DNA from: Vibrio breoganii
GTDB taxonomy: Bacteria > Pseudomonadota > Gammaproteobacteria > Enterobacterales > Vibrionaceae
Reading direction: 5' to 3'
Assembly (NCBI RefSeq): GCF_001677275.1
Contig: NZ_CP016177.1
Location: forward strand, 1,674,001 to 1,738,000
Length of the DNA: 64,000 bases
Shown here: one piece after another, positions 40,694-56,543 of the stretch
Numbering within the stretch: the stretch's first letter is position 1
How the letters are laid out: each line of letters opens with the position of its first letter
Made by a program: the position numbers and the translations under genes
Notes under the pieces: generated by a model
Database searches by the model: none
Told to the model about the DNA's origin: nothing
The model's input: only the letters and a program-made list of their open reading frames with translations

Positions 40694-41995
40694 TTAATTT
40701 ATAAGCTTATAAAGGCCGTGTTTGTGATTAAGAACCAGCCGACTTTTTTCTGTTAGTGACGTATCAAAAGGTACAACCCAAAGCCTAAGTTCATTCTTAA
40801 AATCAAAGTGATGCACTATCGGCTCCCGGAACCCGTCATGGCTTGGGTAGATCAAGTAGAGATCTCCCTTACCCCCGAGATACTTATGTCCGTAGGCGAA
40901 CATCTGATACATATCAGATTGTGAGATACCGTAATTGTGCTCTGACGTATCCAGTAGCTTCCACTTGGTATCTAGCACTATGGCATCACCTCCAGACTGC
41001 CTTATGAGTAAGTCTGGTTTGAGTTGGAATTTGTTTTGGTCATTATGGGTCACCAGGTACTTTGACCTAGCCTGTGTTAATAGTTCCGCTTTACCTTCGA
41101 GCTGTTTGCGCAGAATTGAAGCAACATAACTTTCAAACACGGCCTCCATAGGAAACAGCAAAGAGAGTGCACTGGATTCGCCTTTCATGCTTAAGGGGGA
41201 AAAGCCCGCAAGGATGAGCTTTGCCCAATCTAACGGCGCGTGATAGTCGCTCATGCTCCTGTCTAATCGAACCGCATTAATATCCTGCGCTACGGACTTT
41301 GAAGAAGGTACGTCCATAAAGGCAAACTGCATTTCTCGCAGTAGCTTTTGATTAGAGGGTAATCGGGTGTATTTGGCGACTTTTTGCAGTGCTGTTGCAA
41401 TAAGTCTGTTGGCAGGGCGATTAATTAAATACTCATCGTATTCAACATAAAACTTATGCTTGTTAACCAAGTTGTGTTTGAGCTGTTTACCGACCAGTAA
41501 TTTGCCTTTTTGAAAGTTCAGATTATCTTGCTCAGCAACATAGTCACTTTTAAGACCGCGTTTAATCAGTTGATTTACCGATTGTAAAAACTGATGGATA
41601 AACACCTCTAGCAGAGGCATCTTTTTATTGGCAACACTGGCTTGGTTTGCACTGACGTATCGAAAAGAGCCAAGATGAAGCAACATCATGAGAAGCATTT
41701 GCCTTGAGTTCTCTATCGCTTGGTTCTCATCTTCGGCTTTACGTCCTACTTTAGGCAATACTTCAATATGCTCACCTGTGGGAGTAAACAATACACCTAC
41801 ATAGTTTTTTACCTGTATCAGCTCAACACCAAGGCGTTTGGTCAGGCTAAGGCATTTACACAAATCACTTTCATCTGCGCTTAGACTCACCTCTTTTAGG
41901 TAGTCAAAAGCTCGGGTAGAGATTCGTGAAGCTCCTATACTGGTAGCTTCTTTCGAATGTGTTAAATACCCATACTCAAAAACCGTGGTGTGCAT
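40694..41995 (-). CDS. mcrC: McrC-like PD-(D/E)XK nuclease subunit
   Basis: McrC is the nuclease partner of the McrB GTPase motor and cuts modified DNA. The 433-residue chain has the expected PD-(D/E)XK site LKPDLLIRQSGGDAIVLDTKW at residues about 325-347. An N-terminal DUF2357-like domain is not obvious. The start lies 2 bases after the mcrB stop. The last codons overlap a 16-bp palindrome (40698-40713) with the TTATAAGCTTATAA core. Confidence 0.85.
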   Translation of the reverse strand: MHTTVFEYGYLTHSKEATSIGASRISTRAFDYLKEVSLSADESDLCKCLSLTKRLGVELIQVKNYVGVLFTPTGEHIEVLPKVGRKAEDENQAIENSRQMLLMMLLHLGSFRYVSANQASVANKKMPLLEVFIHQFLQSVNQLIKRGLKSDYVAEQDNLNFQKGKLLVGKQLKHNLVNKHKFYVEYDEYLINRPANRLIATALQKVAKYTRLPSNQKLLREMQFAFMDVPSSKSVAQDINAVRLDRSMSDYHAPLDWAKLILAGFSPLSMKGESSALSLLFPMEAVFESYVASILRKQLEGKAELLTQARSKYLVTHNDQNKFQLKPDLLIRQSGGDAIVLDTKWKLLDTSEHNYGISQSDMYQMFAYGHKYLGGKGDLYLIYPSHDGFREPIVHHFDFKNELRLWVVPFDTSLTEKSRLVLNHKHGLYKLIN

Positions 41996-41997
41996 AC

Positions 41998-44283
41998 CTA
42001 TGAATCAACTCCTGCTGATTCCGCCTCAGATTCTTGCTTATCATCAGTTGCAGTTTTCGCGCCTTTATAGATGCCAATATAAGCTTGAGGGTTTGTCCAA
42101 ACGCCTTCACCTTCTCCCGCTAGGGTATATTTAGTGATGGCCTCACCAAATCGGTCAAGCTGATGGTTATTACCAAATAGGTTCTTCAACTGTTCATTTG
42201 ACTGCTCTTGCTTGCTGACAAACTGCAAGCCAGCTTCTTTCTGGTTATCAGCTAGAACTAGACGAATCTTGTCCCAGTCTTCAAAGAAGTATTCTTCTAG
42301 CAGTGGAATAATCTTGTTTTGGAAAACTGAAACAAGCTGTTCAAAGGTTTTAATATTGATAAAGAAGGCATGACCTAAGGTATGCTCACGGTCATACAAG
42401 ATTTCGATACGTTGATTTAGTGCATTTAACAGCGCCTCAAGGTCTACATCACCAGCGTATTTACCACTCAGTAGCTTCGTATTAGGCATCATCTCTTTGA
42501 AATCGAAACGACGACGTAACGCTGTATCCATCATAGCGAGAGAGCGATCTGCGGTGTTCATAGTTCCGATGATGTGAAGGTTATTAGGAACCGAAAAGGG
42601 TTTACCAGAATACGGCAATATCAGCTCTAGACTCTCATCATTACCTGCTCTCTTAGATGGCTCAATTAAGGTAATAAGCTCGCCAAATACCTTAGAAATA
42701 TTACCTCGGTTAATCTCATCAATAATAAGAACAAAGTTATGCTTCGTATCTTCTGCACTCTGGTTGTGCGTAGAGACTTCAACATCCTGACGAGCCAAAT
42801 GTTTAAATAATTCTGAAGAGTTGAACCTAGTAAGCTCATAACACGTTTTCAACGTTAATCGTGTATTGTTATTGAGCGAATATAACTCCGCATCTAACCC
42901 AGTGCGTAACCATTTCACTGGGATTGTATGACAGAAATCCTCTTTATCTAAAATGCCGCCCTCTCGATATTCATATTCACCGTCAACCACACCGATTGCT
43001 TGTATCGACCATTGTCCTTTGACACAAACGACTATGTCACCCTTGGCCATGCGACTTGAAAATTCAGTTATTGAGGATTTCGCATTAGTTCCTAGCCCCT
43101 CAAAATATGCCTCTTGCTCTGGCTCTCTCTCTTCAAGTGACATATCTCCCGTATATCCCCAACCAATTGCCCCTAGCTGGTTCTTGAAACAATATTCTCG
43201 AGTTTTACTTGGGCCTGTCCCATCGATAGACAGCTTCCAAATTCTAGGGTTTGTATTCAGTAAAGAGGAAGGGGTCTTACCAGTAGTAGATGCATCATCA
43301 CAGATTTGCTTAAAGATACCTGGGCGGACATGGTATTCAACTTGGTCATTTTCATTAATTTCCGCCTTCAAGCCTTCCACAAACTCTTCATAGCCATAGT
43401 TTTGATGGAAGGTAACGAAACGAACCCTTCTATTGGAAGTGAGCTTAGAAAATGTATCCTTGAGCTGTATATACTGTTCTGGTGTGGGCCCTGTTGTCTC
43501 ACTAACTCCAAGGCTTTGGTAAAGCTCTGGCTCAGCAATAGCAACTGCTTCGCATATTGTGTTGTAGGTCTTGCCTGTACCAGGTGGGCCATACAGGATT
43601 TTATTTGAACCTAAAGTAGGTGAACCAACACTTCTGCTCTCACGAATAGCAAAGGAGGCGTCTCCTTTTTCCTTAGATTCTTCCTCTAGTTCCCCTTTTA
43701 GCTGTTCATATCGCTCTATACAAGCATCCCCATACGCCAGTAAGCTTTGCTGCGCGGGTTTCTGTGCGATCAACTTGTTATACATGCCTGGGTATGACGC
43801 ACTTTTGGGGCTGTCGGTAAGGAGCTCAAGCATGGGTCCTGAGAATGTATTTATTATCTTGGGGTCGTCTTGGTTTTGATAAAGAAACGCTATTTTCCAT
43901 TTCACTAAAGGTGAAAAGTCAAAATCGTAGATGGTTTGCAGATCGCCCTCATAAGCAGCCTTGGCAATCCGAACAATTAAATTCTTAACATAAGCAAAAA
44001 CACTCTCCTCATCATTGCCATAACGAGAACGCCATGTATAAATCTCACCGTGCTCAATGCCACTCTGTTGCTTACCTTCTCCTTGGCGCTTATAGATACC
44101 AAACTTTGCCGATGTATTTCCCTTGATAGAACCTAACGATCGTGTCTTGGTCTCGATCCAATATGTAAACGTATCGATATCGTTGACGGAAATGTATTGC
44201 TCTAGAGACATTTCGTCCAAGCTTTCTCTGGGCCAACGCTCTAAAAAGCTATCCCACAACAATTGTTTATCATTAACATCCAT
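41998..44283 (-). CDS. mcrB: McrB-like AAA+ GTPase with inserted EVE-like domain
   Basis: McrB rings use GTP to drive McrC cleavage. In this 761-residue protein, residues 1-220 form an uncharacterised N-terminal domain. The AAA+ core has Walker A GPPGTGKTYNTI near 232, Walker B FVLIIDEINRGNISKVFGEL near 516, and sensor/Arg region GTMNTADRSLAMMDTALRRR near 580. Residues about 344-500, between Walker A and B, contain a domain starting RIWKLSIDGTGPSKTREY, with GAIGWGYTGDMS and GDIVVCVKGQWSIQAIGVVD. These segments look like an EVE/PUA reader of modified bases. I chose ATG 44283 for its GGGGAC ribosome site, five codons inside the longest frame. Confidence 0.85.
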   Translation of the reverse strand: MDVNDKQLLWDSFLERWPRESLDEMSLEQYISVNDIDTFTYWIETKTRSLGSIKGNTSAKFGIYKRQGEGKQQSGIEHGEIYTWRSRYGNDEESVFAYVKNLIVRIAKAAYEGDLQTIYDFDFSPLVKWKIAFLYQNQDDPKIINTFSGPMLELLTDSPKSASYPGMYNKLIAQKPAQQSLLAYGDACIERYEQLKGELEEESKEKGDASFAIRESRSVGSPTLGSNKILYGPPGTGKTYNTICEAVAIAEPELYQSLGVSETTGPTPEQYIQLKDTFSKLTSNRRVRFVTFHQNYGYEEFVEGLKAEINENDQVEYHVRPGIFKQICDDASTTGKTPSSLLNTNPRIWKLSIDGTGPSKTREYCFKNQLGAIGWGYTGDMSLEEREPEQEAYFEGLGTNAKSSITEFSSRMAKGDIVVCVKGQWSIQAIGVVDGEYEYREGGILDKEDFCHTIPVKWLRTGLDAELYSLNNNTRLTLKTCYELTRFNSSELFKHLARQDVEVSTHNQSAEDTKHNFVLIIDEINRGNISKVFGELITLIEPSKRAGNDESLELILPYSGKPFSVPNNLHIIGTMNTADRSLAMMDTALRRRFDFKEMMPNTKLLSGKYAGDVDLEALLNALNQRIEILYDREHTLGHAFFINIKTFEQLVSVFQNKIIPLLEEYFFEDWDKIRLVLADNQKEAGLQFVSKQEQSNEQLKNLFGNNHQLDRFGEAITKYTLAGEGEGVWTNPQAYIGIYKGAKTATDDKQESEAESAGVDS

Positions 44284-44296
44284 TGTCTGTCCCCAC

Positions 44297-44323
44297 AAAA
44301 AAGCACGCCATAAAAGCGTGCTT
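44297..44323 (-). terminator. Hairpin terminator or attenuator before mcrB
   Basis: On the minus strand the stem AAGCACGC / GCGTGCTT with a TTTTATG loop is followed by six Ts. It lies 13 bases after the small HsdR-like gene and 14 bases before the mcrB start, so it would dampen transcription entering mcrBC-druHE. Confidence 0.75.
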
Positions 44324-44781: not shown

Positions 44782-45126
44782 TTAGAGTTTGCCAAATCCC
44801 CACCAAGTCTCGCCAGACCAACCTGCATCATGTTGAAGTGCAAGAGCCGACTCTGCGTTAATCGCATTACATAACTCACGTGGATCCATATCATCATCCA
44901 AAGAGAGATTAAATATTTCACGCAACTTTGGGTGTAAATAGGAATACATACTAATATCAGACACATAACAAAATAGTAATGTGGGATCTTCTTCGATTTC
45001 CCTGCCATCTGCTTTATCAAATATATCTACTATTTGCTCTGAATTCTCACCGTACAAAATTAGACCAGAATATGGAGCATAGAGATCTTGTCTGTCATCT
45101 TTAATAGTTATTACTGGAATAGCCAT
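44782..45126 (-). CDS. Small acidic protein, paralogue of the next upstream gene
   Basis: A 114-residue acidic soluble protein starts MAIPVITIKDDRQDLYAPYSG. Its first 80 residues parallel those of the neighbour upstream: PVI(E/T)I, (Y/F)(A/S)PF or PYSG, LYG, DPT/SLLF, and YSY. I do not recognise the family. The ORF starts 10 bases after the neighbour's stop. Its position inside the defence cluster suggests an accessory or regulator role, but nothing seen proves this. Confidence 0.55.
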   Translation of the reverse strand: MAIPVITIKDDRQDLYAPYSGLILYGENSEQIVDIFDKADGREIEEDPTLLFCYVSDISMYSYLHPKLREIFNLSLDDDMDPRELCNAINAESALALQHDAGWSGETWWGFGKL

Positions 45127-45135
45127 TTAGTACCT

Positions 45136-45495
45136 CTAAATTGTTTCAATAGGGGCAAATGCCACCCAAAAATCGCCAAGTGTAGAGCTATTGCATTGTC
45201 TCATTACAACAACCCCCTCAAGCTCCAGTTGACCAAGCATCACTAGTGGTTCTAGTTCATCTTCGTCTGGATCAGAGCCAAGAACTTCTATTAGTTTTGA
45301 TGAAGTGTATGAGTACTCTCCATTCTCACCGTCATACATAAATAAAATACTTGGATCTAGTGAAGGCTCGCCAAGTAATTCTTGAACCTGCTCTAATTGG
45401 TCATCACTTAAGTCTTGGCCGTAAAGCATACGACCAGTGAAAGGGGAAAAGATTTTTTGCTCATCATCAGAAATTTCAATGACTGGAACTGGCAT
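45136..45495 (-). CDS. Small acidic protein (paralogue of 44782-45126)
   Basis: A 119-residue acidic protein starts at ATG 45495 (MPVPVIEISDDEQKIFSPFT), chosen because it aligns with the paralogue and has GGAG upstream; the track start at 45534 is 13 codons longer. There is no membrane segment or signal. The family is not recognised. The upstream gap (45535-45715) contains a large hairpin and a TTATAAGCTTATAA-type palindrome, so this gene may have its own promoter. Confidence 0.55.
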   Translation of the reverse strand: MPVPVIEISDDEQKIFSPFTGRMLYGQDLSDDQLEQVQELLGEPSLDPSILFMYDGENGEYSYTSSKLIEVLGSDPDEDELEPLVMLGQLELEGVVVMRQCNSSTLGDFWVAFAPIETI

Positions 45496-45549
45496 AGATA
45501 GACTCCGAAATGTTTGAAATTGCATATTATCCAATATCTAAAAATGTTT

Positions 45550-45571: not shown

Positions 45572-45623
45572 AACTAGACAAAACAGAGTGTACAAGAGGA
45601 TTAATGCCACTGACTTATCAAAA

Positions 45624-45668
45624 TGCGCCAGGTAAAATAAATTACGCTATTTACATTACCCTGGCGCA
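45624..45668 (-). other. Hairpin between the Zorya-like operon and the small acidic genes
   Basis: Arms TGCGCCAGGTAA and TTACCCTGGCGCA pair over 12 bases with one bulge, and further short pairs form inside. It lies 48 bases after the stop of the 322-residue MotB-like gene. No T run follows, so I call it a structured intercistronic element, possibly a weak terminator. Confidence 0.5.
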
Positions 45669-45715
45669 TATCATATATTAGAAAGAGGAATACTAGATAA
45701 CACGCTTTAGATATC

Positions 45716-46684
45716 TCAGCTTAAATTGCCATCCAATGCTTTCTCTACATCTGTAGTTGATGGAGGAGACATAATAAACCTGAAATCAATACGCCTATTC
45801 TTAGGGTCGTTAGTAGGTTGAATATGTTCATGGCCTTCAACAGGCCTATCGTCGCCATAACCACTAACACTAAACACGGGCTGCATTTGGTCGTTTTGCA
45901 TACCTTTAAGAAGATAAGTACCGTTAACCAATTTGTTGAAGGTATAGTTTGCTCTAGCCGTTGATAAATCTCGGTTGTCAGCAAATTGACTTAGTAGAGC
46001 TCCGCGAATGGGAACGTTGTCAGTATGCCCTTCGATGAAAACTGAGTTTAACTTGCCTTTGGTTTCCGGAAGACATTGAAGATCATCTGGCTGTACAGCC
46101 GCATAACAAGGCAGTATCAGCGCTAACACGTTCGATACTGTTTCTAGCTTCTGTATATACTCATGATCCAGCTCAGCTTTGCCTGTAGGGAATAGGATTG
46201 CGTCCTCACCCAAACGCATCACGCCATGCTCCATGTCCATATCGACATTCAATCCCTGCTCTTGCAATGAGTGTTCTATGTTTTCAAGAAGCTCAACTCG
46301 AGCGCGGGAGTTTTCAACTATATTGGTGAGATAGCCTCGGGCAATATTACGCTCTGAAACTAACTTTGAGTTCTGTTCTTCTAGTAACTGTTGTAGCTCT
46401 CGAGACAGTTTTTCTTGACGAGTTAGCTCTAAATTTTTAGTTTCCAAAGTTGCTCTTAGTTTGTCTGCTTCGCTTTGTTTCCGGCGAAGAGCAGATTCTT
46501 GTTTTTTAAGATGAGCTATTCGAGCCTGATATTCATTCTCTTTACGCAAGCTATCTCTGTTAGCTTCCATTAGAGAAATCATGAAAACAGCAAGCAAGAT
46601 AATAAAAACGAAGATTAGACCCGACATAATGTCGGAGACAGATAGTATATAGCTACCGTCATCAGAATATTTTTTACTTGTCAC
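45716..46684 (-). CDS. MotB/ZorB-like OmpA-domain protein 3 with coiled coil
   Basis: This 322-residue protein has one N-terminal membrane helix with the motor aspartate (SVSDIMSGLIFVFIILLAVF, Asp at residue 18), a coiled coil (about 45-125), and an OmpA/MotB peptidoglycan-binding domain with VFIEGHTDNVPI and, near the end, NRRIDFRF. It matches the 258-residue paralogue closely beyond the coiled coil, down to the same HTDN box. It overlaps nothing and lies 2 bases from the gene before it. It is one of two MotB-like proteins encoded beside a single MotA-like gene. Confidence 0.85.
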   Translation of the reverse strand: MTSKKYSDDGSYILSVSDIMSGLIFVFIILLAVFMISLMEANRDSLRKENEYQARIAHLKKQESALRRKQSEADKLRATLETKNLELTRQEKLSRELQQLLEEQNSKLVSERNIARGYLTNIVENSRARVELLENIEHSLQEQGLNVDMDMEHGVMRLGEDAILFPTGKAELDHEYIQKLETVSNVLALILPCYAAVQPDDLQCLPETKGKLNSVFIEGHTDNVPIRGALLSQFADNRDLSTARANYTFNKLVNGTYLLKGMQNDQMQPVFSVSGYGDDRPVEGHEHIQPTNDPKNRRIDFRFIMSPPSTTDVEKALDGNLS

Positions 46685-46686
46685 TG

Positions 46687-47652
46687 TTACTTAACCATAT
46701 AGTCAATTCGTCTAGGGGAAAACTTGGTGCCATTTTTTAGCATATAGGAAGCACGGTACTGCCAGAATCCTGTTTTGCTTAACATAAAACTCAAGTTGTA
46801 TTTTAAGTTGGGTAGATCAACAACTACCTGGTCATGCGAGTCAACTAGTTTACCTAGTTCACTAATGACCCCCTCATCAGCCGATGTGTTGTAAACAACA
46901 ACCGCATTGGACAACTGCATAACCACGTACACTGTCTGATCACTAATACCATGGTGTACCTTGCAATCAGGCACATGATCTTTAACTTGGTTAACGTGAC
47001 TCTTAGAAGTATAAAAATCTAACTTCCAAACTAGGCCTCTCTGAACGTAACTGTTAAAAAACTTGTTCACCCATATCAAGTTGCCGTGCTCTGGTAACGA
47101 AACTGAATACTCCTGAAATTTCTCAAACTTGTCGCTAAGCCAACTATTTCGGGTAATTTCGAGGTCACTCAACCATTCATTGTAATTACCTGAAAACTCC
47201 GCAACATGTTCATTATAACAGCGCTTCCCTCGAAGCTTAGTCTTATCAATCTCCTGAGTTAGCTGCAAAATATCACTAGTAATATCAGCCAAGTTGTCAG
47301 ATAAGTTGGCTTTAGCTAATTGTTCAATATCAGACAATAGAATTTGGCACGTTATTGTATCGTTGCGATCAACAAACATGGTTTTAGCTTGTGGCCAAAA
47401 ACCCTCGACCTCAAGAACATTACCCGTAAAGCGTCTTGTATCTGGGCTCAAAACACATAAGTGAGCCAAGATATGCTGGCCATACAAAGATACTGTCGAG
47501 GTATTGAGGTTTCCTTGATTCACCAATCGCCGTGTATGCTGGTAACCAATTTTGAGCTCTTCATTACTTGGCTTTTTGATTGTACTGAACAGCTTCTTGA
47601 AAGAGTCATTCGACACTTTCGCCAACGCACCTGTGGACTTTAAATCAATCAT
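46687..47652 (-). CDS. Unknown protein between two MotB-like genes
   Basis: A 321-residue soluble protein begins MIDLKSTGALAKVSNDSFKK. It lacks a signal peptide, membrane helix, P-loop or nuclease motif that I recognise. Its C-terminal half is rich in beta-type segments such as QTVYVVMQLSNAVVVYN. The start codon overlaps the stop of the upstream MotB-like gene by one base, so it is coupled to the motor genes and probably works with them. I do not recognise the family. Confidence 0.7.
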   Translation of the reverse strand: MIDLKSTGALAKVSNDSFKKLFSTIKKPSNEELKIGYQHTRRLVNQGNLNTSTVSLYGQHILAHLCVLSPDTRRFTGNVLEVEGFWPQAKTMFVDRNDTITCQILLSDIEQLAKANLSDNLADITSDILQLTQEIDKTKLRGKRCYNEHVAEFSGNYNEWLSDLEITRNSWLSDKFEKFQEYSVSLPEHGNLIWVNKFFNSYVQRGLVWKLDFYTSKSHVNQVKDHVPDCKVHHGISDQTVYVVMQLSNAVVVYNTSADEGVISELGKLVDSHDQVVVDLPNLKYNLSFMLSKTGFWQYRASYMLKNGTKFSPRRIDYMVK

Positions 47653-48428
47653 TACAAATTCCCCTCAAGCGCATGCTCAACATCGGTTGCTGTTGGTGGG
47701 GTCATAATAAATCTAAAGTCAATTCGACGATTTATTGGGTCACTCTTTGGATAAGCATACTCATGCCCAGGTACAGGACGGCCTTCCCCATAGCCACTAA
47801 CGCTGATTACAGGTTGCGCGTTAACATTTTGCATACTGATCAGAATGGGCTGACTCTTAGCAATTTCACGATAAGTGAACATTGCCCTGTCAGCTGATAA
47901 CTCCCAGTTATCCTTATATCGATTGGCCAGCCGCCCGCCGATAGGGACGTTATCGGTATGCCCTTCAATGAATACCGAGTCGATCTTACCTCGGGTTTCT
48001 TCTAGACACTTGCCGTTGTCTGGTTGATTACTACCGTAGCATGGCAATATCTCTGAAAGGACTTCGGCAACCACCTCCAGACGCTCCAATTGCTCACCTC
48101 GCAAATCAGCAGATCCCGTAGTAAACCTGATTGCATTTTCATTCAAACGAAGTACACCGTGTTCAATATCAATATCGACTTCAATACTTCGCTTTGCTAG
48201 CGCTTCTTGCATATCAGTCAACATTGCACCACGCATTTGGTTGTTTTCATCGAGCTTTTCTAAAATCTGCGTTAGCTCTTGCATCTTCTCCTCATGCTCT
48301 CTCGATGCAATTAGGAAATCGATGACAAAAATTGCCAGTGTAATGATAAAAATAAACATTAAACCTGACATGATGTCCGAGACAGACATCATGTAACTAG
48401 ATTCTTCGCTTTGCTTCTTCCAACTCAC
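47652..48428 (-). CDS. MotB/ZorB-like OmpA-domain protein 2
   Basis: A 258-residue protein has an N-terminal helix SVSDIMSGLMFIFIITLAIFV with Asp at residue 18, a short coiled coil, and a C-terminal OmpA/MotB domain (VFIEGHTDNVPIGGRLANRY and NRRIDFRF). This fold anchors stators to peptidoglycan while the Asp carries protons. It overlaps the upstream MotA-like gene by 4 bases (ATGA). It is a close paralogue of the 322-residue protein two genes downstream. Confidence 0.85.
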   Translation of the reverse strand: MSWKKQSEESSYMMSVSDIMSGLMFIFIITLAIFVIDFLIASREHEEKMQELTQILEKLDENNQMRGAMLTDMQEALAKRSIEVDIDIEHGVLRLNENAIRFTTGSADLRGEQLERLEVVAEVLSEILPCYGSNQPDNGKCLEETRGKIDSVFIEGHTDNVPIGGRLANRYKDNWELSADRAMFTYREIAKSQPILISMQNVNAQPVISVSGYGEGRPVPGHEYAYPKSDPINRRIDFRFIMTPPTATDVEHALEGNL

Positions 48429-50317
48429 GCTTGAGCAACCCTTTTATACTCTGCACTCGAAAGATCTCTAACTAGGGCACCAATTTCACTAGTTGCGTCA
48501 ACTATGTTGCCTGCTACTTCTGCGAACTGAGAGTCCATCTGCTGAATCTCATTATTAGTGTGAGCCACGTATTGCACTAATCCCTGTTGCAGTTTCTCAA
48601 GTACATTTGCTAGCGATGATTCCATTTCACTTGCAAAACCTGATTGAGATTCAATAAGTGATTTCAATTGAACTGTTGCAGATGCAATGGCTTGATTTGA
48701 CTCGCCAGACTCAACAGCGCTCGACTTTACTTGCTCAATTAAGTCTCGGAACTGTTCGATTGTTGCGTTTGTTTGTTGATTCGCTTCTACAAACTGACCT
48801 GATGCAGCTTCTAGGCTACTGATTACCTGTGTGAAGCTCATTAAGCTGTTTTTAGATGCTTCGTTAAGCTGGTTTACAACTTGAATATTACCGATCAGCT
48901 CTGAATTCATTATGCCAAAGCCATCAACTACAGCTGGAAGCTGTGCTAAAGAATCTGCAACCGCAGACTCGGCGCCTCTCATTTGTTCTGTAAGCTCTGA
49001 TACCTGCTCGCTCAGACTGGTCGCCACTTTATCAATCATCTGAGGCAACATTTCATCCGTTAGCGCTTGGTATTGCTGAAGCGACTTGTTCATGTGCTCT
49101 TCTGATAGCACAGTTAAGCTCTGTGGAATTTTTCCAAACTCTTGTGCAGTTTGGCTCATCGTAGCTTTGTAATTTTCCGATACTTCAACAACTTGTGTTT
49201 GAACTGCACTAGTCATTGCTGAGATCTTCTCTTCTACATGTGCTACTACATCTTTTTCTCTTGCTGACATTTCTTCTACAGAAGTTGCCAGTTGTTGAGT
49301 AAGGCTAGTAACTGAGCTATCTAGATTCGATGCTAACTTAGCTGTAGTTTGTAGCGTTTTATCTTGTGCACTAGAGAAGCGCTCAATGTTAGCTAGTAAG
49401 TTTGCGTTGACTTGCTCAAGAACTTCACCCATCTGTTCAATTTCTTTACCAGCTGACTCCAATAAAGTTTCTCTAAATTCTTTTGACACTCGGCGAATGG
49501 TTTCATCCGTGATTCGCTGTTGGTCCACTTGGAAGTCAGATAATGCTTTAGTCTGCGCTTGAGTTGCTTCAAGTTGCATGGCAGCCAGCTTATCTGAGTC
49601 TATAAATTCAATATGTGAAGCAAGGTAGTCACTAAACTCTTTTACTTTACCCTCTAGTTTATGGAAGCGAGCCTTCTCATAAAGAGAGAATATCATAGAA
49701 CAAACAATTCCCACGACAGAGGTTGTAAAGGCAATACTTGCACCAGAAAGAAGAGGATTTAATGATTCTTTTGCTGCATCAATATCTGATGAACTCAAAC
49801 CAACAGATGCTTCATTGATGCCTATCATCAAGCCTACAAACGTAAACAGAAGGCCTGCACCAGTGAGCATGTTAGGGATTGAAGTAAACTGCCTGATGTT
49901 TACATATGGCTCAACTACTGTCTCCATGTTAAACACAGAGTTCACTTGTAATGTGTTGCGTAGTGCCGGTGCTTGGTTGCTTTTGAGGGTGTAGTCTTTA
50001 CCAGGCAATTGCATACTTCTTTTGTATGCGCCCCATGCAGGTGCTAGATATTTAGCCCCTTTAATAACTGACTGCATTTTCCCATAGTTTTGGTACGCAA
50101 TAGTTGCGGAGTTAGACTCCCACTCTTGCTCTACTTCATTACCGTCATCATCGTATTCTACTTGAGGCTTTAAGTTGTTAAGTTCTGCATTAACACCCTC
50201 TAGTTGTTTGATCAGCTTACGAGTCACTCCTTGAAGCATTACAGCAGCAATAAGAGCACCAAACACTATCAATGCGCTAAATGTAAGCGTCAAAGGGTCT
50301 TGAAAAATTGTGGCCAT
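48425..50317 (-). CDS. MotA/ZorA-like channel protein 2
   Basis: The 630-residue protein has membrane helices near residues 5-30, 140-165 and 190-212 (the segment NMLTGAGLLFTFVGLMIG is typical of MotA/TolQ/ExbB). From about residue 240 to the end it is a long coiled coil of Gln/Ser/Glu-rich heptads, like the cytoplasmic tail of ZorA. ZorA-type proteins form a pentamer around two ZorB proteins and are proton-driven. It is clearly different from the 833-residue ZorA-like protein upstream. Its start overlaps the stop of the EH-signature gene by one base. Confidence 0.8.
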   Translation of the reverse strand: MATIFQDPLTLTFSALIVFGALIAAVMLQGVTRKLIKQLEGVNAELNNLKPQVEYDDDGNEVEQEWESNSATIAYQNYGKMQSVIKGAKYLAPAWGAYKRSMQLPGKDYTLKSNQAPALRNTLQVNSVFNMETVVEPYVNIRQFTSIPNMLTGAGLLFTFVGLMIGINEASVGLSSSDIDAAKESLNPLLSGASIAFTTSVVGIVCSMIFSLYEKARFHKLEGKVKEFSDYLASHIEFIDSDKLAAMQLEATQAQTKALSDFQVDQQRITDETIRRVSKEFRETLLESAGKEIEQMGEVLEQVNANLLANIERFSSAQDKTLQTTAKLASNLDSSVTSLTQQLATSVEEMSAREKDVVAHVEEKISAMTSAVQTQVVEVSENYKATMSQTAQEFGKIPQSLTVLSEEHMNKSLQQYQALTDEMLPQMIDKVATSLSEQVSELTEQMRGAESAVADSLAQLPAVVDGFGIMNSELIGNIQVVNQLNEASKNSLMSFTQVISSLEAASGQFVEANQQTNATIEQFRDLIEQVKSSAVESGESNQAIASATVQLKSLIESQSGFASEMESSLANVLEKLQQGLVQYVAHTNNEIQQMDSQFAEVAGNIVDATSEIGALVRDLSSAEYKRVAQA

Positions 50318-51738
50318 TAAAATCTTTTTCCTGTTTTAAAATATATAGTTCTGTCGGGAAGTCCCGTATACCTAAACTCTTGTTTTTCTTGAGCTCCACG
50401 CGCCCGTTCCAAATCGTCAGAACTCAACCATTGCTGGCCTTTATTAGCGTTATGATGAATGCCTAAGCCTTTTAACATGTGCGTTAATCTTATCTGCCAC
50501 CAATCAAAATGGTCATGAACTATTTGTGGAGTAAGCTTCATTAACGTATATGCATCGAGGTAATCGGCTTCAAATAGAATTTCAACGAGCTCATCAGTCT
50601 TTTTAAAAATACCAAGATCAAAGTTACTTACTCTAAAGCGTTCGACCAAGATATATTGGCCTATCTCTAGAATGCATATTTCACTTTTGTCATTAAAAGG
50701 CATTGACTCCATAACAGTTACACGATGCTGGGCTAAATCTATTTGTGTTTTTAGTAGCTTTTCCGACCTAGACGTAAGTAAAAAACGTACACGGCCAAAT
50801 GAATCACTAAAATCAGACCAAAAACTCGGGCGCTTTATTAAATGATTTGCTTCACGGCTACACAACGTGGGATCGGTACGAGTTTCACTCAGCTTTTCGA
50901 ACAGCAGTTGTACCGAAGCAAAATCAGTAACATTAAAAATACTCTTAAGCTTTAGCTGGGACTCTTTCGAAAGTCGATACCAGATCGTATTTTTTGAATC
51001 AGGTAGACAGTGACCTTTTATCCATTTTTCAAATGGCGAGTCAGAGGCTATGAGTGACACTTTATTCAGTAGTCTTTCTAACTGCTCAATAGTTTGGTCT
51101 TGCTCTATTAAATCTTGACAGCTTCTCCACCAAGTCAATTGAGCTGTACTAGGGTTTTGAGGCAATGCATTCTCAGCAGCACAAGCTATTTTTGATATAT
51201 GTGAACCTTTGTATTCCATGCCTAAAGAGTCAAAGAAACTAACTATCCCCTTGCCGCTAGCGAGTATGGCGCTAGCGCCTGAGTCAAACTGGTCACTAAT
51301 CAAAAATCTGGTGATTTCTATTTGCTGTTTTGTTGTTCTTGAGAAGTTTCTAGGCAATACTCTTGGGAAACTATTCAGTAAAGCTTTGGCAACTGAAATG
51401 TAGTCTCTCGAATAACCCGAAACTAGCTTTATAGTTAGCTTGGCAAACCTTTGTTCATCTTTGCTAATAGCATTCCAGACTTCACCTACAACAGCTTGTC
51501 GAACCTCGTCATCTAAGGACTCATACTGCGATTGAGAGCGCAGTAAAATAAGCCACTCTAGCTCTGAGATCTCTCCAGATTCCTTTAACTTTTCAACAAT
51601 GCTGGTGATCGCTTTATCTGCAAAGAAAGAAGACCCTACAGCTTGCTCAGACTGGTGTTCCTGGCCTTTACCAATTAATTCAGAAAGCTTGGTGAACCTA
51701 GGCAATGCAGGCTCGATAAACCATGATCTAGGCTTCAT
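50317..51738 (-). CDS. zorC: EH-signature (ZorC-like) protein
   Basis: The 473-residue soluble protein has features I associate with the EH_Signature domain of ZorC: RPSFWSDFSDSFGRVRFLL near residue 310, the Glu-containing strand CILEIGQYILVERFR near 350, and the His-containing helix VHDHFDWWQIRLTHMLKGLG near 410. ZorC is required for type I Zorya defence and is thought to act on DNA with ZorD. It follows the MotB-like gene by 1 base and overlaps the next channel gene, so it is part of the module. The assignment rests on partial motif similarity read by eye; other EH-type families remain possible. Confidence 0.55.
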   Translation of the reverse strand: MKPRSWFIEPALPRFTKLSELIGKGQEHQSEQAVGSSFFADKAITSIVEKLKESGEISELEWLILLRSQSQYESLDDEVRQAVVGEVWNAISKDEQRFAKLTIKLVSGYSRDYISVAKALLNSFPRVLPRNFSRTTKQQIEITRFLISDQFDSGASAILASGKGIVSFFDSLGMEYKGSHISKIACAAENALPQNPSTAQLTWWRSCQDLIEQDQTIEQLERLLNKVSLIASDSPFEKWIKGHCLPDSKNTIWYRLSKESQLKLKSIFNVTDFASVQLLFEKLSETRTDPTLCSREANHLIKRPSFWSDFSDSFGRVRFLLTSRSEKLLKTQIDLAQHRVTVMESMPFNDKSEICILEIGQYILVERFRVSNFDLGIFKKTDELVEILFEADYLDAYTLMKLTPQIVHDHFDWWQIRLTHMLKGLGIHHNANKGQQWLSSDDLERARGAQEKQEFRYTGLPDRTIYFKTGKRF

Positions 51739-51739
51739 A

Positions 51740-52378
51740 TTATTTGCCCATCATCTCTGTCAAATCTCGGCTCTTGAATTCGAACCTAAACACAACCTTC
51801 CTATTTTTATAAGACGATAGCTTAGGGTCTGCATCTAAATTTCCTCGAGCGGCAGGTAGAACCTTATCGATAAATCGTCCTTTATATGGGAAGGTCATTT
51901 TTTCAATATAGGTAGTTACAACCTCTGCTCTGCTCAGACTCAGAGACATAGCTTTTCCTTTGCCTTCACCTGCGTCTGCATGCCCTTCTATAACTAGGTG
52001 CAGTACCTCTTCTGAGGTGCCATCATTTAAAAATATTGCTTGGCTATATATGGGTATCAGCTTCTTCAAGAATAACTTTGATGCATCATTAATAGCATAG
52101 CTATTCTCCGAGAAATTCAAGCCCTCTGTTAATGCCAATGACCCTGTTTGTAAGTCAACTTTGGACTTAATTCCCGCTTCATCTAGGCCCTTTTGTATCT
52201 CTTCAATAATGACAATCCGGTTACTCTTAGACTGCTCTTGATACTCATAAAGACGTGCCAAAGTTACGATTAGAAACAGGGCAAAAACCATTAACAGTCC
52301 AGCCATCAAGTCACCTATTGATAGCCAAGTGCCTGTTTCATCGATTTGTTCTTCTGATTGCTCTAAAAATGTATCCAT
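51740..52378 (-). CDS. zorB: ZorB/MotB-like OmpA-domain protein 1
   Basis: A 212-residue protein has an N-terminal membrane helix SIGDLMAGLLMVFALFLIV with the proton-carrying Asp at residue 23. It has a C-terminal OmpA/MotB domain with VIEGHADAGEGKGKAMSLSLSR, in which the usual TDN is replaced by ADA. It is shorter than the second and third MotB-like proteins. Its start overlaps the stop of the ZorA-like gene by one base. It is expected to anchor the ZorA-ZorB motor to peptidoglycan. Confidence 0.82.
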   Translation of the reverse strand: MDTFLEQSEEQIDETGTWLSIGDLMAGLLMVFALFLIVTLARLYEYQEQSKSNRIVIIEEIQKGLDEAGIKSKVDLQTGSLALTEGLNFSENSYAINDASKLFLKKLIPIYSQAIFLNDGTSEEVLHLVIEGHADAGEGKGKAMSLSLSRAEVVTTYIEKMTFPYKGRFIDKVLPAARGNLDADPKLSSYKNRKVVFRFEFKSRDLTEMMGK

Positions 52379-54879
52379 TAGACAACCAATGCACTTTCTT
52401 CTTTAAGTGAAGCTTTCTCTTGTTGAGCTTCCTCTATAACTGTACTCATAAGCTCAGCTACATAACCTAATTTGTCGTAAATACTTGAAGATGCTGCATC
52501 GAATGAAGCAAAGTATTCTTCCACCGATTGATTAGCACGCTTGAAGTAGTCATCCATTTCTGGGCGCATTTGTGATGCAACCAATGCAAACTGTGTAGAA
52601 GCTTCGCTAAATGACTTACCTAGATCTGCAACCTGACGACCAATAGATTGCTGAACTAGTTGAATTTCACTCGTCCAACTTGCTTTTTCTAAGCCTAAAG
52701 CCTTAGCCATCGACTGAACTCGTTCAGCGGCCTCGGCCAGTTGTTCATGTTGCTTATCAAGCTCTAAGAACAAAGTTCTGCGCTTTTGATATTCATCTTC
52801 AAACGCTGCTTTGAAGTTATCTACAACCTCATTTAGGCCACTCTTCTGCTCATTTAGTGACGCATCCAATAGTCTGTTTTGCTCGGTGAAGTAATGAGTA
52901 AGGTTCTGCTGGTAGTCCTCTCTGAAGCGCTCTAATTCGATTTGAACAGTTGAGGACATATCTTTAACTTTCGTATCGATATCGCCCAGGCCAGTTTCTA
53001 ATTCGTGCTTTGCACTCTTCATTAGTAATGCTGACTCCATGCCCACTCTTTTCAGGATATTCGCCTGTTCATCAAACATAGATTTTGAATCAGCAATAAT
53101 GGCCGAGAATGACTTAGTTTGTTGCTCGATAGACTCGTTGCCTAGCACAACAATTCCTTTAACTTCTTCTGAAATAGCAGACAGGGCCTGTGTACTATTA
53201 TCAGCAAACTCATTCAAAGAGCGATCCATTGAATCTGCGAAATCACCAAGTTTAACTAGAGTTTGCTTTTCAAAGTTCACTACCGTTTCGGTGGCCTTAG
53301 ACATTTCCTGAACAGAGTTAACCACATTTTGGTTTAGCTCATCCGTTACATCAGCAAAGCGAGATACGACCTTATTTGTGTCACTCAGTTCATTGGTAAC
53401 AGGCTTAACAACCTCTTCACCCATTTTCTCTACAAGGTGCTCAAACTCTGCCATTCTCGACTTAGAAAGATCTTCTATACTAGCAACCGTTGACGCTGAA
53501 TGAATGTTGATTTCTTCTAGCTTAGAGAAAATTGGAGTTGAAATTACGTCGGCAAGAGCCTCGCGTAGCTGCGAGTCTGACATTTGATCCTCAAGTAATT
53601 TGTCTGTGTTTAAGACACCTTGAGCAATACTATTTTCAACTAAAGTGTCAATTCCACCCAATTTAGTAGTTATGCCTTCCGAAGTTGATTGCAAAGCTGA
53701 TAGCTTTTGAAGTAGAGGGTGTTGCAGCTCATGTTGCAATGCATCTACCAACTGAGCTTGTGTGAGAGGCTCAGCGCTTTGCTGTGTCAACGTTCCAAGC
53801 ACTTCTGACATTGCAAACATAGCGGTGTTTATCTGTTGAGATTCATGAGCTACTTGCTCTAAAGCGGAAACTGTTGGGGCGGTTACCTTCGCTTCCAAAC
53901 TCTCACCTAAAACCTCTGGAGTAATACTGTTATCAACCAAAGTATCAATTCCAGATAATTTACTTGTAATATTTGATAGGTCTTGTCGCAACGGTTCAGT
54001 CACACCACTTTCAATTGCGGAACCGACATGTTGAGCAAGAGATTTCCCAAGTACATCTTCGTCTTGTTTTAGGGATAAGAGTGTAGAGATCAGGTCTTTA
54101 TGTAGCGCAGATATCCCCTGCTCTAGCGTTCTGGTATTTTGTTCTGAAAATCGCTCATATTGTTCACCTGTGAGCGCTGAAGGCTTATTGATTAGTGATT
54201 GCAATGCGTCAACAAGCTTAGAGAAGTCAGCCAGTTCATTTTTACTATCTTTTTGATGTTCAACTAGCTGGTGTAAGAGATCACTCCCCGATACTAGTTT
54301 AGAGTTCTGTTGGATTTTAAGAAGTTTCTCATTTCGACTTTTTGCTTGCGAAGCAATCAACCACGACAGTACTCCCATAAAAACAAAGCTTGCCCCCATA
54401 CCTGCTATAGAAGTTTGAAAAGCAGTACCTAGGCCTTCAATTAGTCCCATAGCCTTTGATACTAATTGATCTGAACTAGCACCAATACCGTCAAGAGACC
54501 CTAAGCCAATAGTAATACCAAAGAAAGTACCCAAGATACCGATAGTCGTCAGGATAGCCGGTACTGATTTAAATGCCGCGCTACTAAAAGAAGGTACCAT
54601 CATGTCTGCAGGACGCAACAATAGTACCGCAGAGCCCTCAAACGACACCTTTTTACCGTTCTTGCTAGTATGTGTGGCACATGATTGACTCGCCAATGCT
54701 TGAGCTTTTTCGCTCAATTGATTGATTGGCATGTTTCTACTGGTGCTTATTTCTTCAAAAGAATCTGAAATTTGGCCAATGGTTTCCTTATATTTAGCTT
54801 GAGCACTGTAGAGCCTAGATAAGCACCAGATCAGTAATACAACGGTAACGGCGATGAAAATAATATTAATTAAAGGCAT
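52378..54879 (-). CDS. zorA: ZorA-like MotA-family channel protein 1
   Basis: This 833-residue protein begins with a membrane helix (about 3-25), then shows the MotA/TolQ/ExbB double helix: PAILTTIGILGTFFGITIGL near 108-128 and TAFQTSIAGMGASFVFMGVL near 155-175. From about 200 to 833 it is coiled coil, much longer than the 630-residue homologue in this operon. That is the ZorA plan, in which the tail is thought to relay the phage signal to cytoplasmic effectors. Its start lies inside the 3' end of the small gene upstream (10-base overlap). Confidence 0.82.
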   Translation of the reverse strand: MPLINIIFIAVTVVLLIWCLSRLYSAQAKYKETIGQISDSFEEISTSRNMPINQLSEKAQALASQSCATHTSKNGKKVSFEGSAVLLLRPADMMVPSFSSAAFKSVPAILTTIGILGTFFGITIGLGSLDGIGASSDQLVSKAMGLIEGLGTAFQTSIAGMGASFVFMGVLSWLIASQAKSRNEKLLKIQQNSKLVSGSDLLHQLVEHQKDSKNELADFSKLVDALQSLINKPSALTGEQYERFSEQNTRTLEQGISALHKDLISTLLSLKQDEDVLGKSLAQHVGSAIESGVTEPLRQDLSNITSKLSGIDTLVDNSITPEVLGESLEAKVTAPTVSALEQVAHESQQINTAMFAMSEVLGTLTQQSAEPLTQAQLVDALQHELQHPLLQKLSALQSTSEGITTKLGGIDTLVENSIAQGVLNTDKLLEDQMSDSQLREALADVISTPIFSKLEEINIHSASTVASIEDLSKSRMAEFEHLVEKMGEEVVKPVTNELSDTNKVVSRFADVTDELNQNVVNSVQEMSKATETVVNFEKQTLVKLGDFADSMDRSLNEFADNSTQALSAISEEVKGIVVLGNESIEQQTKSFSAIIADSKSMFDEQANILKRVGMESALLMKSAKHELETGLGDIDTKVKDMSSTVQIELERFREDYQQNLTHYFTEQNRLLDASLNEQKSGLNEVVDNFKAAFEDEYQKRRTLFLELDKQHEQLAEAAERVQSMAKALGLEKASWTSEIQLVQQSIGRQVADLGKSFSEASTQFALVASQMRPEMDDYFKRANQSVEEYFASFDAASSSIYDKLGYVAELMSTVIEEAQQEKASLKEESALVV

Positions 54880-55229
54880 AGTTCATTCTTTGGTTGTGTT
54901 GCGCTTCGAAACTCGGTTTCAGTCAAAAGGTTTTGTAGAAGGTATCTAGGTATGTGCTCAGCATTCCATTTAATGTCTCCATCGGAAGAGAGCACTGCTC
55001 GTTCGCCAAATCTAACGCTAAATACCTCTCCATCAGGATGGTTTTCTAAATCAGCTTTGAACCAGACTAACTTGGGGTAAGTCCGGTAAAACTCTACTTG
55101 CCAAGCTGACTTTTGTTCTTGTAACTGCTTGGCAATATGCTGATTTACATATGGATCACTATCATCCCCAGCGGTCTTCCAAGCTCGATTTATGGCTGTT
55201 ATTCGTTGTACGAAATCATCTAAAGTCAT
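54870..55229 (-). CDS. Small leading protein of the Zorya-like operon
   Basis: A 119-residue soluble protein starts at ATG 55229 (MTLDDFVQRITAINRAWKTA). The three-base-longer frame starts at TTG. It has no signal, helix bundle or motif that I recognise. It is the first gene of the operon, and its 3' end overlaps zorA by 10 bases. The IS insertion begins 60-70 bases upstream, so this gene now lies close behind foreign DNA. Function unknown; a regulator, an adaptor or an antitoxin-like accessory would fit, none of them supported by a motif. Confidence 0.6.
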   Translation of the reverse strand: MTLDDFVQRITAINRAWKTAGDDSDPYVNQHIAKQLQEQKSAWQVEFYRTYPKLVWFKADLENHPDGEVFSVRFGERAVLSSDGDIKWNAEHIPRYLLQNLLTETEFRSATQPKNELCL

Positions 55230-55285
55230 CAAGATCTCTTAAAGGTTTAGGAGCTAAATTAGTTACTTCATATGCATTGAGATAG

Positions 55286-56543
55286 CTATTCACCCCAGGG
55301 TGACCGCATGAGTGCCTAGTTTTTCACCACTCGAGTAAAACCAGCACTTAATACTGCCTCTAGCATCGATGTATTCATCATGCAGCGCTTTTGCTTACCA
55401 ACAATGCTTAGCTTGGTTGGCTCTTCTCGGAGCATGTTCAAGCTCATATGACGTAGGCATGATAGGTTCTCTGCACCGTGATCTTTGTATATCAGGCATG
55501 CATCTTCATTCATGGTGACATCAAGTACCCAGTGCATTGACTCTATGCCCCAATGTTCTCTGACAGCCATAGCAGCTTGCTCTGCACTAAGCTCTTTGGA
55601 GCTGATGTAATAACGGTACTCTAGGTCGACAGATTTATCTTTCTCAAGGCGAAAGTTTTCAACCATCACAATGCTCTTCAAGCCTTTCCAGCGAGAGAAA
55701 TTACCTTCAAGTTTTGCACTGTCAAAAACATAGCATTGACGAGACTCTATACGGCCATGTCCTTGCTCAAGAGAGATGTTATCAGCCACATTGGCTCGCT
55801 GAGAAGAGAATGCCTTTTCTATTGCTTGTCGGAGTTTTCCTTGGTTGCTCTTTACGGCAAGCAGGTAGTCTCCACCTTGATCTACAATGGCTTTAGCAAT
55901 CTTGGTTTGACAGGCCATAGCATCAATAGTTACTAGGGCCCCCTTGATATCGAGCATCTTTATCAATTCAGGGATCGCTGTAATTTCATTGCTTTTTTGT
56001 TCGGTTTTTAGCTGTCCCAGTACGAGCTTGTTGGACGACGCATAAGCACTAATCATATGAATGGTGCTCGTCCTGTCTTCACGATTATATGAGCCGCGAA
56101 GTGTTTTTCCATCAATCGCAATCACTTGACCTTCGGTGAGAGTATGAATTGATGACATCCAGTTAATGAAGCACTCATGGAACTGTTCGGGTTCAATGGT
56201 AGAGATGATACGAGCTATTGTGTCATCAGCAGGAATACCATTCAAAAACAAGTCATTACGCTTAAACCAATCATGATGACCGAGAATGTATTCACGAATA
56301 TCGAACCAACCTTTCGCGCCTGCAATCACTGCACATAGCGAGCCAAAAAGGACTTCAAACAGGCAATATGTGACCTTTGCACCTTGGCGTTGGTCGATAA
56401 TCGTTTGAAAATGTTCTTTGAAGTGGTCAATGTGCATGATGCTCTCCCTAAAAAGGGAGTATATGATCACAGCTAAATGTGATCGTCAAATCAATCGTGA
56501 TTTTGATTGAAAAACGTTCACGATCTCACCCTGCTATTCACCC
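55286..56543 (-). mobile_element. ISAs1-family insertion with 10-bp target duplication
   Basis: The element is 55296-56533 (1238 bp) with CAGGGTGA at both ends as inverted repeats. The 10-bp duplication CTATTCACCC flanks it at 55286-55295 and 56534-56543, so this insertion is recent enough to keep an exact duplication. The transposase is transcribed on the same strand as the Zorya-like operon it faces. Removing the IS restores an imperfect inverted repeat in the leader (TCATATGCATTGAG with CTCAAACTGCATATGA). Confidence 0.85.
55316..56437 (-). CDS. ISAs1-family transposase
   Basis: A 373-residue DDE transposase of the ISAs1 family includes the AKGWFDIREYILGH segment, the catalytic QVIAIDGKTLRGSYNR and the REHWGIESMHWVLDVTMNED region near 295-325. 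ATG 56437 is chosen because family members begin MHIDHF-like; the track start is 11 codons upstream. It is intact, so the element may still be active. Confidence 0.9.
   Translation of the reverse strand: MHIDHFKEHFQTIIDQRQGAKVTYCLFEVLFGSLCAVIAGAKGWFDIREYILGHHDWFKRNDLFLNGIPADDTIARIISTIEPEQFHECFINWMSSIHTLTEGQVIAIDGKTLRGSYNREDRTSTIHMISAYASSNKLVLGQLKTEQKSNEITAIPELIKMLDIKGALVTIDAMACQTKIAKAIVDQGGDYLLAVKSNQGKLRQAIEKAFSSQRANVADNISLEQGHGRIESRQCYVFDSAKLEGNFSRWKGLKSIVMVENFRLEKDKSVDLEYRYYISSKELSAEQAAMAVREHWGIESMHWVLDVTMNEDACLIYKDHGAENLSCLRHMSLNMLREEPTKLSIVGKQKRCMMNTSMLEAVLSAGFTRVVKN

Follow-up and report, generated by a model that had tools for sequence, protein, structure and literature searches.

What does a Zorya-type operon do with two ZorAB motors and no recognisable effector? 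The question is raised by eight minus-strand genes in a 64,000-nucleotide stretch of the Vibrio breoganii genome (contig NZ_CP016177.1, positions 1,674,001 to 1,738,000; hereafter the window), a genome of 4.49 Mb in 3 contigs. According to the available parts of the papers on Zorya types I to III, each has a single ZorAB motor that recruits its own effector (PMC11890865; PMC8565338; PMC12904381); ZorAB senses a disturbance of the envelope, and the motor, rotating on an ion flow, recruits ZorCD or ZorE through its tail (PMC11890865; PMC12904381). The initial annotation had suggested that the two motor sets, lacking ZorD and ZorE, might represent a new branch of Zorya or a tandem sensor in which one motor complex would control the other. 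Our analysis bears out the first suggestion: the PADLOC models for ZorA, ZorB and ZorC match, the gene order recurs in other species, and no type described in the parts of the literature covered has this layout. We conclude that the operon belongs to Zorya, as a new variant, and does not represent a separate kind of system.

The eight open reading frames (ORFs) run from position 55229 down to 45716 in the order small-ZorA1-ZorB1-ZorC1 (set 1) followed by ZorA2-ZorB2-ZorC2-ZorB3 (set 2); coordinates and family matches are collected in Table 1. All ORFs lie where they were first placed, and they overlap or are at most 2 bases apart, as originally described. Overlaps measure 10 bases between the small gene and ZorA1, 1 base at ZorA1/ZorB1, ZorC1/ZorA2 and ZorB2/ZorC2, and 4 bases at ZorA2/ZorB2, and gaps of 1 and 2 bases separate ZorB1 from ZorC1 and ZorC2 from ZorB3. 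The count of eight genes and the EH-signature protein, here ZorC1, stand from the initial gene list. Amended are the start of the small gene, moved from the TTG at 55232, where the listed ORF began, to the ATG at 55229, the 321-residue protein once listed as unknown, which is ZorC-like, and the 322-residue third MotB-like protein, which is a ZorB and a paralog of the 258-residue ZorB2.

The two motors are, on the sequence evidence, from two ZorAB lineages, with a duplicated ZorB (ZorB2/ZorB3) in the second. A ZorB tree of 56 rows contains three supported groups, with long-branch warnings on the joins between them: the set-1 ZorB together with those of other small-ZorABC modules and Nostoc (support 100/98), the type II ZorB (100/98), and ZorB2, ZorB3 and the canonical type I ZorB (99/97). 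A tandem duplication of one set was considered and is ruled out, the set-1 and set-2 ZorB proteins falling into separate clades (100/98 and 99/97, with the same warnings on the joins).

The small protein that heads set 1 has no match in Pfam, PADLOC or NCBIfam at E<=0.1. It also heads small-ZorABC modules elsewhere in Vibrionaceae and on a Nostoc plasmid, and a protein search returned 234 homologues at E<=0.001, the best 120 of which include proteins from Shewanella, Moritella, Photobacterium, Aliivibrio, Nostoc and others; among these, the gene context read is that of Nostoc HK-01 alone. Residues T118 and S157 of ZorA1 (positions counted by hand, as are those given for ZorA2) align with the Thr and Ser of the solved ZorA 8qyk and are invariant in 5 rows. 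Among seven ZorA1-type proteins, Nostoc included, mean pairwise identity is 0.33-0.50 in the channel part (residues 101-200), 0.00-0.19 in the variable middle (201-500) and 0.35-0.63 in the distal tail (501-800); the distal tail is conserved as much as or more than the channel domain. D23 of ZorB1 is the channel Asp, invariant in 15/15 ZorB rows, and by-eye reading of the alignment indicates that the H or D of the peptidoglycan-binding residues is substituted in some carriers. ZorC1 scores 28.6 bits against Pfam PF15611 (cut-off 27.5), its predicted model (predicted local distance difference test, pLDDT, 72.7) has ZorC 8r68 as top match in the PDB (E 7.6e-5), and E366 and H410 are invariant in 6 rows.

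In set 2, T159 and S200 of ZorA2 align with the same Thr and Ser and are invariant in 5 rows; both ZorA families align to the solved ZorA. Six ZorA2-type proteins are conserved in the channel part (identity 0.63 over residues 151-200), and past residue 300 their identity is 0.06-0.32. D18 of ZorB2 aligns with the invariant channel Asp, and the best PDB match of this protein by sequence is 8vvn_B, deposited as "chemotaxis protein MotB-related protein" (E 9.6e-25). The OmpA domain is above cut-off in ZorB1 and ZorB3 and slightly under it in ZorB2 (25.9 vs 27.2 bits). ZorB3 is 64 residues longer than ZorB2, mostly by linker, a long insert lying between the membrane helix and the OmpA domain. Read by eye from the alignment, both ZorB2 and ZorB3 seem to keep the residues that the available part of one study identifies as required for peptidoglycan binding in Zorya I (PMC11890865).

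The 321-residue protein is, by predicted fold and by comparison of relatives, a short, degenerate ZorC. Among the 350,542 chains of a PDB library, ZorC 8r68 is the top match of its blind AlphaFold model. A PADLOC ZorC model matches a protein with 95% identity to the ortholog in genome G150, and a profile comparison of ZorC2 with ZorC1 gave E 0.054 at first and E 7.4e-6 (probability 84) with a wider ZorC set. A direct PADLOC scan returned no ZorC match for the window ZorC2 (an insignificant match only) or for P0017, the Pfam EH_Signature family matched none of 10 ZorC2 members, and the ZorC1 and ZorC2 profiles found nothing meaningful in the PDB by sequence, where the fold search alone matched. 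The E column of the signature holds Y in the window and the H column F; the G150 ortholog retains both E and H. Across the four aligned ZorC2 rows E is lost in three, and the window has lost both; the two remaining carriers have the same Y in the E column.

Neither set brings a recognised effector. Scans with PADLOC, Pfam and NCBIfam identified no nuclease or helicase domain in the eight proteins. The PADLOC library contains ZorF and ZorG models, and at E<=0.1 the PADLOC scan gave no match to either family. ZorD (PDLC00629) and ZorE (PDLC00645) are absent from the operon and, at E<=1e-20, each from five of the six carriers of the operon described below, the window genome among them; the first statement that both are missing holds for the operon and, with one model each, for the genome. 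The ZorD model is permissive, matching in 7 of 14 control genomes, and still gave nothing in these five carriers. The exceptions are an unlinked ZorD match with 2 stops in G207 and a ZorE in V. inusitatus, within its extra type II set.

How widely is the arrangement kept? At E<=0.001 the ZorC2 gene occurs in 6 of 227 genomes of the genus, the other 221 having no match, and all eight genes stand in identical order in these 6/6 carriers, which are six Vibrio species. The genomes sampled, here and below, are one per species but related, and counts hold for the sets searched. A strain-specific curiosity is thereby ruled out, and with it the concern raised at the outset that the order might be unique to this strain. 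Protein identity between the window and the other carriers ranges from 24% (ZorC2, L015) to 89% (ZorB3, L011). Adjacent genes overlap or are no more than 2 bases apart in the window and L011-L014; in L015, 2 of 7 junctions are wider, with gaps of 21 and 11 bases. The ratio of nonsynonymous to synonymous substitution rates (dN/dS) was 0.00-0.28 in 19 of 24 gene-pair comparisons (the other 5 gave no value), and we therefore regard the ORFs as maintained genes. Identity between the window and L013 runs from 43% (ZorC2) to 87% (the small protein), a spread that points to mosaic exchange in the operon or to genes evolving at unequal rates.

ZorA2 matches at E<=1e-30 were confined to the 6 carriers and G314 among 329 Vibrionaceae genomes. 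In 369 genomes drawn from the class, ZorA1 at E<=1e-15 was found in its own genome only, and a ZorA2 relative is present in three genomes of another family, with a matching ZorB adjoining in 2 of 3 fetched loci. ZorC2 had no match in 72,556 plasmids and none by pattern scan in viral contigs, the small protein had none in viral contigs, and a set-1 ZorB had none in 50,697 phage records. Plasmid matches of the set-1 ZorB comprise the Nostoc module, four Vibrio plasmids, three E. coli plasmids annotated zorB2 and one Nitrosospira "MotB". Gene context among the four Vibrio plasmids was read for that of V. coralliilyticus only, whose ZorB is type II-like because an HNH endonuclease gene adjoins.

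Set 1 has a wider distribution, and in Vibrionaceae it is always found with a second motor. Its ZorA was detected at E<=1e-20 in 22 of the 329 Vibrionaceae genomes, and in 22/22 a second ZorAB motor adjoins the small-ZorABC module, which has no ZorD: a type II ZorABE in 16, a window-type set 2 in 5, and both in 1. Seventeen further loci were annotated (one being a second module in G075), and in each of them small-ZorA-ZorB-ZorC directly follows ZorA-ZorB-ZorE. Of this type II set, ZorA was confirmed at all 17, in two frames in G014, and the ZorE of L058 matches PDLC00645 at 5.7e-153. The double-motor unit of G250 is divided between two contig ends (L071 and L133), and ZorB and ZorC of G216 have 2.5 kb between them. 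Type II plus small-ZorABC is the commoner of the two double-motor layouts in Vibrionaceae. ZorE is present in 40 of the 329 genomes, 17 with the small-ZorABC module and 23 without; type II sets can stand alone, and set 1 never does in this sample. V. inusitatus (G075; L058 and L011) has four ZorAB motors in a row, namely ABE, small-ABC, small-ABC and A2-B2-C2-B3. The ZorC of the type II plus small-ZorABC loci is long, about 580-800 residues (L058 12179-14227 and others); the four scanned gave weak TPR/Sel1-like matches in C-terminal extensions, and the window ZorC1 has no such extension.

Downstream of the operon lie further defence genes, Druantia III and McrBC, which the initial annotation did not mention, nor did it mention the hsdR remnant or the commoner double-motor layout. 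DruH and DruE, which together define Druantia III, are both present beside the window operon. A type I restriction or Druantia III gene set follows the double-motor unit in 21/21 testable small-ZorABC genomes (G014, whose sequence ends too early, was left out): hsdR is present in 18 of them, split between two frames in the case of G284, and Druantia III in 3 (the window, V. superstes/G207 and G004). Among the 23 ZorABE-only loci, with 2.6 to 15.9 kb of downstream stretch covered, 2 have DruE/DruH sequence (L112, as pieces, and L123), 4 have McrBC, and none has hsdR in the annotated stretch, where the ORF caller passes over frames running off the end, so that an hsdR running off the stretch, as in G005, may be missed.

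The restriction subunits were compared with a 1182-residue protein of L011, which is HsdR with an HsdM gene adjoining, both identified by reading of the sequence. Identity to it is 72-91% in 13 of 14 genomes with the type II plus small-ZorABC layout and 41% in G178; in the window-type layout L013 and L014 have 93% and L015 41%, L011 being the reference. Altogether 16 of 18 module-linked HsdR proteins are at 72% or more and two at 41%. Of forty genomes without the module (all 23 ZorABE-only genomes and 17 others picked by handle), 2 have an HsdR of at least 77%, and 8 have an HsdR of some kind at E<=1e-100; G005 is the only genome in which this genome-wide search placed one downstream on the same contig at a distance of up to 10 kb, and G003 has one upstream. 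A CARF/Csx1-like gene (Cas_NE0113 or CARF5 match) lies between the Zorya genes and hsdR in L061 (8094-9308), L074 (8558-9679) and L015 (13632-14774). In the window a stub of hsdR precedes McrBC and Druantia III, and in G004 (L067) a similar stub is followed first by a piece of McrC and then by Druantia III. It looks as though defence systems have been exchanged repeatedly at the 5' end of hsdR.

On the other side, the first gene is preceded, at a distance of about 60 bases, by an ISAs1-type element whose transposase frame is open. It splits an upstream region in which V. inusitatus (L011) has similarity on both flanks (77% over 325 bases and 83% over 59 bases). Expression in the window strain may differ because of this element, which is absent from the matching V. 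inusitatus sequence.

Table 1. Features of the operon and its surroundings in the window (all on the minus strand; aa, amino acids).
Feature	Positions	Strand	Match or remark
Small protein, 119 aa from ATG (120 aa from TTG at 55232)	54870..55229	-	Heads ZorABC module
ZorA1, 833 aa, set 1 motor protein	52378..54879	-	PADLOC PDLC00597, E 2e-86
ZorB1, 212 aa, set 1 peptidoglycan-binding partner	51740..52378	-	PADLOC PDLC00609, E 1.8e-48; OmpA domain
ZorC1, 473 aa, EH_Signature	50317..51738	-	PADLOC PDLC00618, E 2.8e-38
ZorA2, 630 aa, set 2 motor protein	48425..50317	-	PADLOC PDLC00598 ZorA, E 1.8e-28
ZorB2, 258 aa	47652..48428	-	PADLOC PDLC00610 ZorB, E 1.3e-83
ZorC2, 321 aa, putative short ZorC, degenerate EH signature	46687..47652	-	Fold match to ZorC
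ZorB3, 322 aa, ZorB2 paralog	45716..46684	-	PADLOC PDLC00610 ZorB, E 1e-74
Terminator-like hairpin soon 3' of ZorB3	45622..45670 (approximate ends)	-	Predicted fold
Two small paralogous genes (114 and 132 aa) 3' of operon	44782..45534	-	No family; pair in 4/6 carriers (window, L011, L013, L014)
Remnant of hsdR 5' end, 82 aa	44336..44584	-	57 aa 100% identical to 1182-aa L011 protein
McrB-like AAA protein	41998..44298	-	NF008457 McrB, E 4.8e-32, below cut-off; AAA_5
McrC	40694..41995	-	PF10117 McrBC, E 6e-105
DruH, Druantia III	37265..40630	-	PDLC00047 DruH3, E 0, 1598 bits
DruE, Druantia III helicase	31031..37219	-	PDLC00037 DruE3, E 0, 2306 bits
ISAs1-type insertion (transposase 55316-56470), operon upstream region	55294..56532 (approximate ends)	-	NF033564, 426 bits

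Set against the known types, both sets of the operon follow Zorya type I in the succession of ZorA, ZorB and a ZorC-like gene. A canonical type I locus in G314 resembles set 2 (ZorB 47% identical), and the model that its ZorC matches also matches a ZorC2 relative. Unlike type I, the window operon has no ZorD; it has a second motor, a small gene at its head, a third ZorB and a short, degenerate ZorC2. Type II (ZorA-ZorB-ZorE) acts as the second motor beside the set-1 module in 17 of 329 Vibrionaceae genomes, but the window has no ZorE, and its ZorB1 and ZorB2/ZorB3 fall in other clades. Type III (ZorA-ZorB-ZorF-ZorG in the available part of PMC8565338) shares ZorA and ZorB with the window, which lacks a ZorF or ZorG match. 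The gene order small-ZorA-ZorB-ZorC recurs on a Nostoc sp. HK-01 plasmid (L026), whose proteins have 24-38% identity to those of set 1; next come genes for a DpdE/DrmD-like helicase and a DrmMI/type IIG-like methyltransferase, and the stretch read has no second motor. Druantia III adjoins a Zorya-type operon in the window, as it does in two further small-ZorABC genomes; the synergy of Druantia III with Zorya II reported in the available part of PMC13192584 involves a type II system with ZorE, which the window does not have. In the literature on Zorya, taken as titles, abstract openings and the available parts of PMC11890865, PMC8565338, PMC12904381 and PMC13192584, we found no description of a two-motor Zorya.

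How, then, might such an operon work? Read from sequence are the eight genes and their conserved order, the two lineages of ZorAB, a second ZorC and a ZorB duplicate, the conserved channel and Asp residues, and the adjoining type I restriction or Druantia III genes; protection against phage is predicted. We tentatively favour a Zorya variant in which two ZorAB motors, each with its own ZorC-like gene and without ZorD or ZorE, sense phage injection at the envelope and probably rely on a neighbouring DNA-destroying system. Each ZorAB would be a 5:2 ion-driven motor, and ZorB2 and ZorB3 would either be paired in one ZorA2 motor or form two motors of different periplasmic reach. An injecting phage would disturb the peptidoglycan and so open the channel, and the ZorA tails would gather ZorC1 and ZorC2 at the entry site, with the conserved distal tail of ZorA1 a candidate docking place for the small protein or ZorC1. 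In the least certain step, ZorC1 and ZorC2 would mark or hold the incoming DNA and the neighbour would cut it (HsdR at most loci; McrBC with DruH/DruE in the window). We assign the cutting to the neighbour because there is no ZorD or ZorE in the operon or the window genome; a set without ZorD should need another effector, since in Zorya I deletion of each component abolishes protection, according to the available part of PMC11890865. A restriction or Druantia neighbour in 21/21 testable small-ZorABC genomes against 2/23 ZorABE-only loci (Fisher's test, p 1.3e-10) also speaks for this reading, as does the synergy of Druantia III with Zorya II reported in PMC13192584.

Several observations weigh against a dependence on neighbours. 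From the last Zorya gene to hsdR the distance is about 70 bases to 2.2 kb, which means no translational coupling. The window operon may end before the neighbours at the hairpin downstream of ZorB3, predicted at -23 kcal/mol by folding of the 181 bases after this gene; the corresponding spacers in the other 5 carriers fold less strongly (-8.7 to -11.1), and a consensus terminator scan after ZorB3 listed no terminator. Druantia III and McrBC in the window at most replace the usual hsdR. The enrichment of neighbours by Fisher's test (p 1.3e-10 for 21/21 vs 2/23) overstates independence because the sampled genomes are related, and it becomes 1.0e-9 (3/23) with G005 counted, a ZorABE-only genome with an HsdR (77%) 9.2 kb downstream on the same strand. 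The McrBC downstream of 4 of the 23 ZorABE-only loci means that defence neighbours occur there too. Finally, ZorC itself might block DNA without a nuclease.

This last point leads to the chief alternative, unlikely in our estimation, of a self-contained double-motor Zorya in which the ZorC proteins clamp DNA at the motor tails, or ZorC1 or the small protein has an unrecognised activity, and the neighbours are island companions. The EH residues of ZorC1 are kept in 6/6 rows, and the gene order is maintained in three surroundings (hsdR; Druantia III; McrBC with Druantia III) although no nuclease or helicase domain is recognised, both of which fit this account. It is at odds with the loss of protection upon deletion of each Zorya I component (PMC11890865, in the part cited above) and with the presence of a restriction or Druantia neighbour in every one of the 21 testable small-ZorABC genomes.

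We think it rather improbable that two independent Zorya systems, each working alone, were stacked by chance in a defence island. The sets do belong to different lineages, a set-2 relative stands alone with ZorD in G314, and a set-1 relative lacks a second motor on the Nostoc plasmid. However, the genes are tightly joined in the window and L011-L014 (overlaps, or gaps of at most 2 bases) and, but for 2 junctions, in L015, ZorD and ZorE are missing from both sets, set 1 is never without a second motor in 22 Vibrionaceae genomes, and it pairs with two unlike second motors.

A decaying Zorya, with ZorD lost, ZorC2 degenerating and the locus on its way out, is very unlikely. Such decay would accommodate the loss of the ZorC2 E in 3 of 4 aligned rows (E and H in the window, and the same Y in the other two carriers), the lowest window-L013 identity falling on ZorC2, and the insertion sequence about 60 bases upstream. 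Against it, all eight frames are open in 6/6 species, dN/dS is low throughout (0.00-0.28), and the channel and Asp residues are invariant. A non-defence transport or stress motor of the ExbBD/TolQR kind is scarcely credible: MotA/TolQ (weak, below cut-off) and OmpA domains are common to such motors, but the best family matches are Zorya models, among them those of the 630- and 258-residue proteins (Table 1), which rules out the unrelated transport system that the initial annotation had named as the refuting outcome for these two, and two ZorC proteins, long ZorA tails and defence genes on one side argue otherwise.

Returning to the favoured reading of two motors that rely on a neighbour, a general design may be sketched, which we put forward as doubtful. 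A nuclease-free "sensor" module (small-ZorABC) would always work with a second ZorAB motor; in the window, where neither motor has a nuclease, ZorB2 and ZorB3 would form a hetero-rotor of unequal reach on one ZorA2, and the motors would license the neighbouring restriction or Druantia machine at the entry site.

What is new in the window operon is the combination of two motors of separate ancestry with no recognisable effector of their own. It opens the question of what a second motor adds, whether an order of sensing, amplification or proof-reading, and whether a membrane motor can switch on an adjacent restriction or Druantia enzyme. It also offers a natural ZorA with a conserved distal tail, of use for mapping docking sites, and what may be a natural pair of ZorB proteins on one ZorA.

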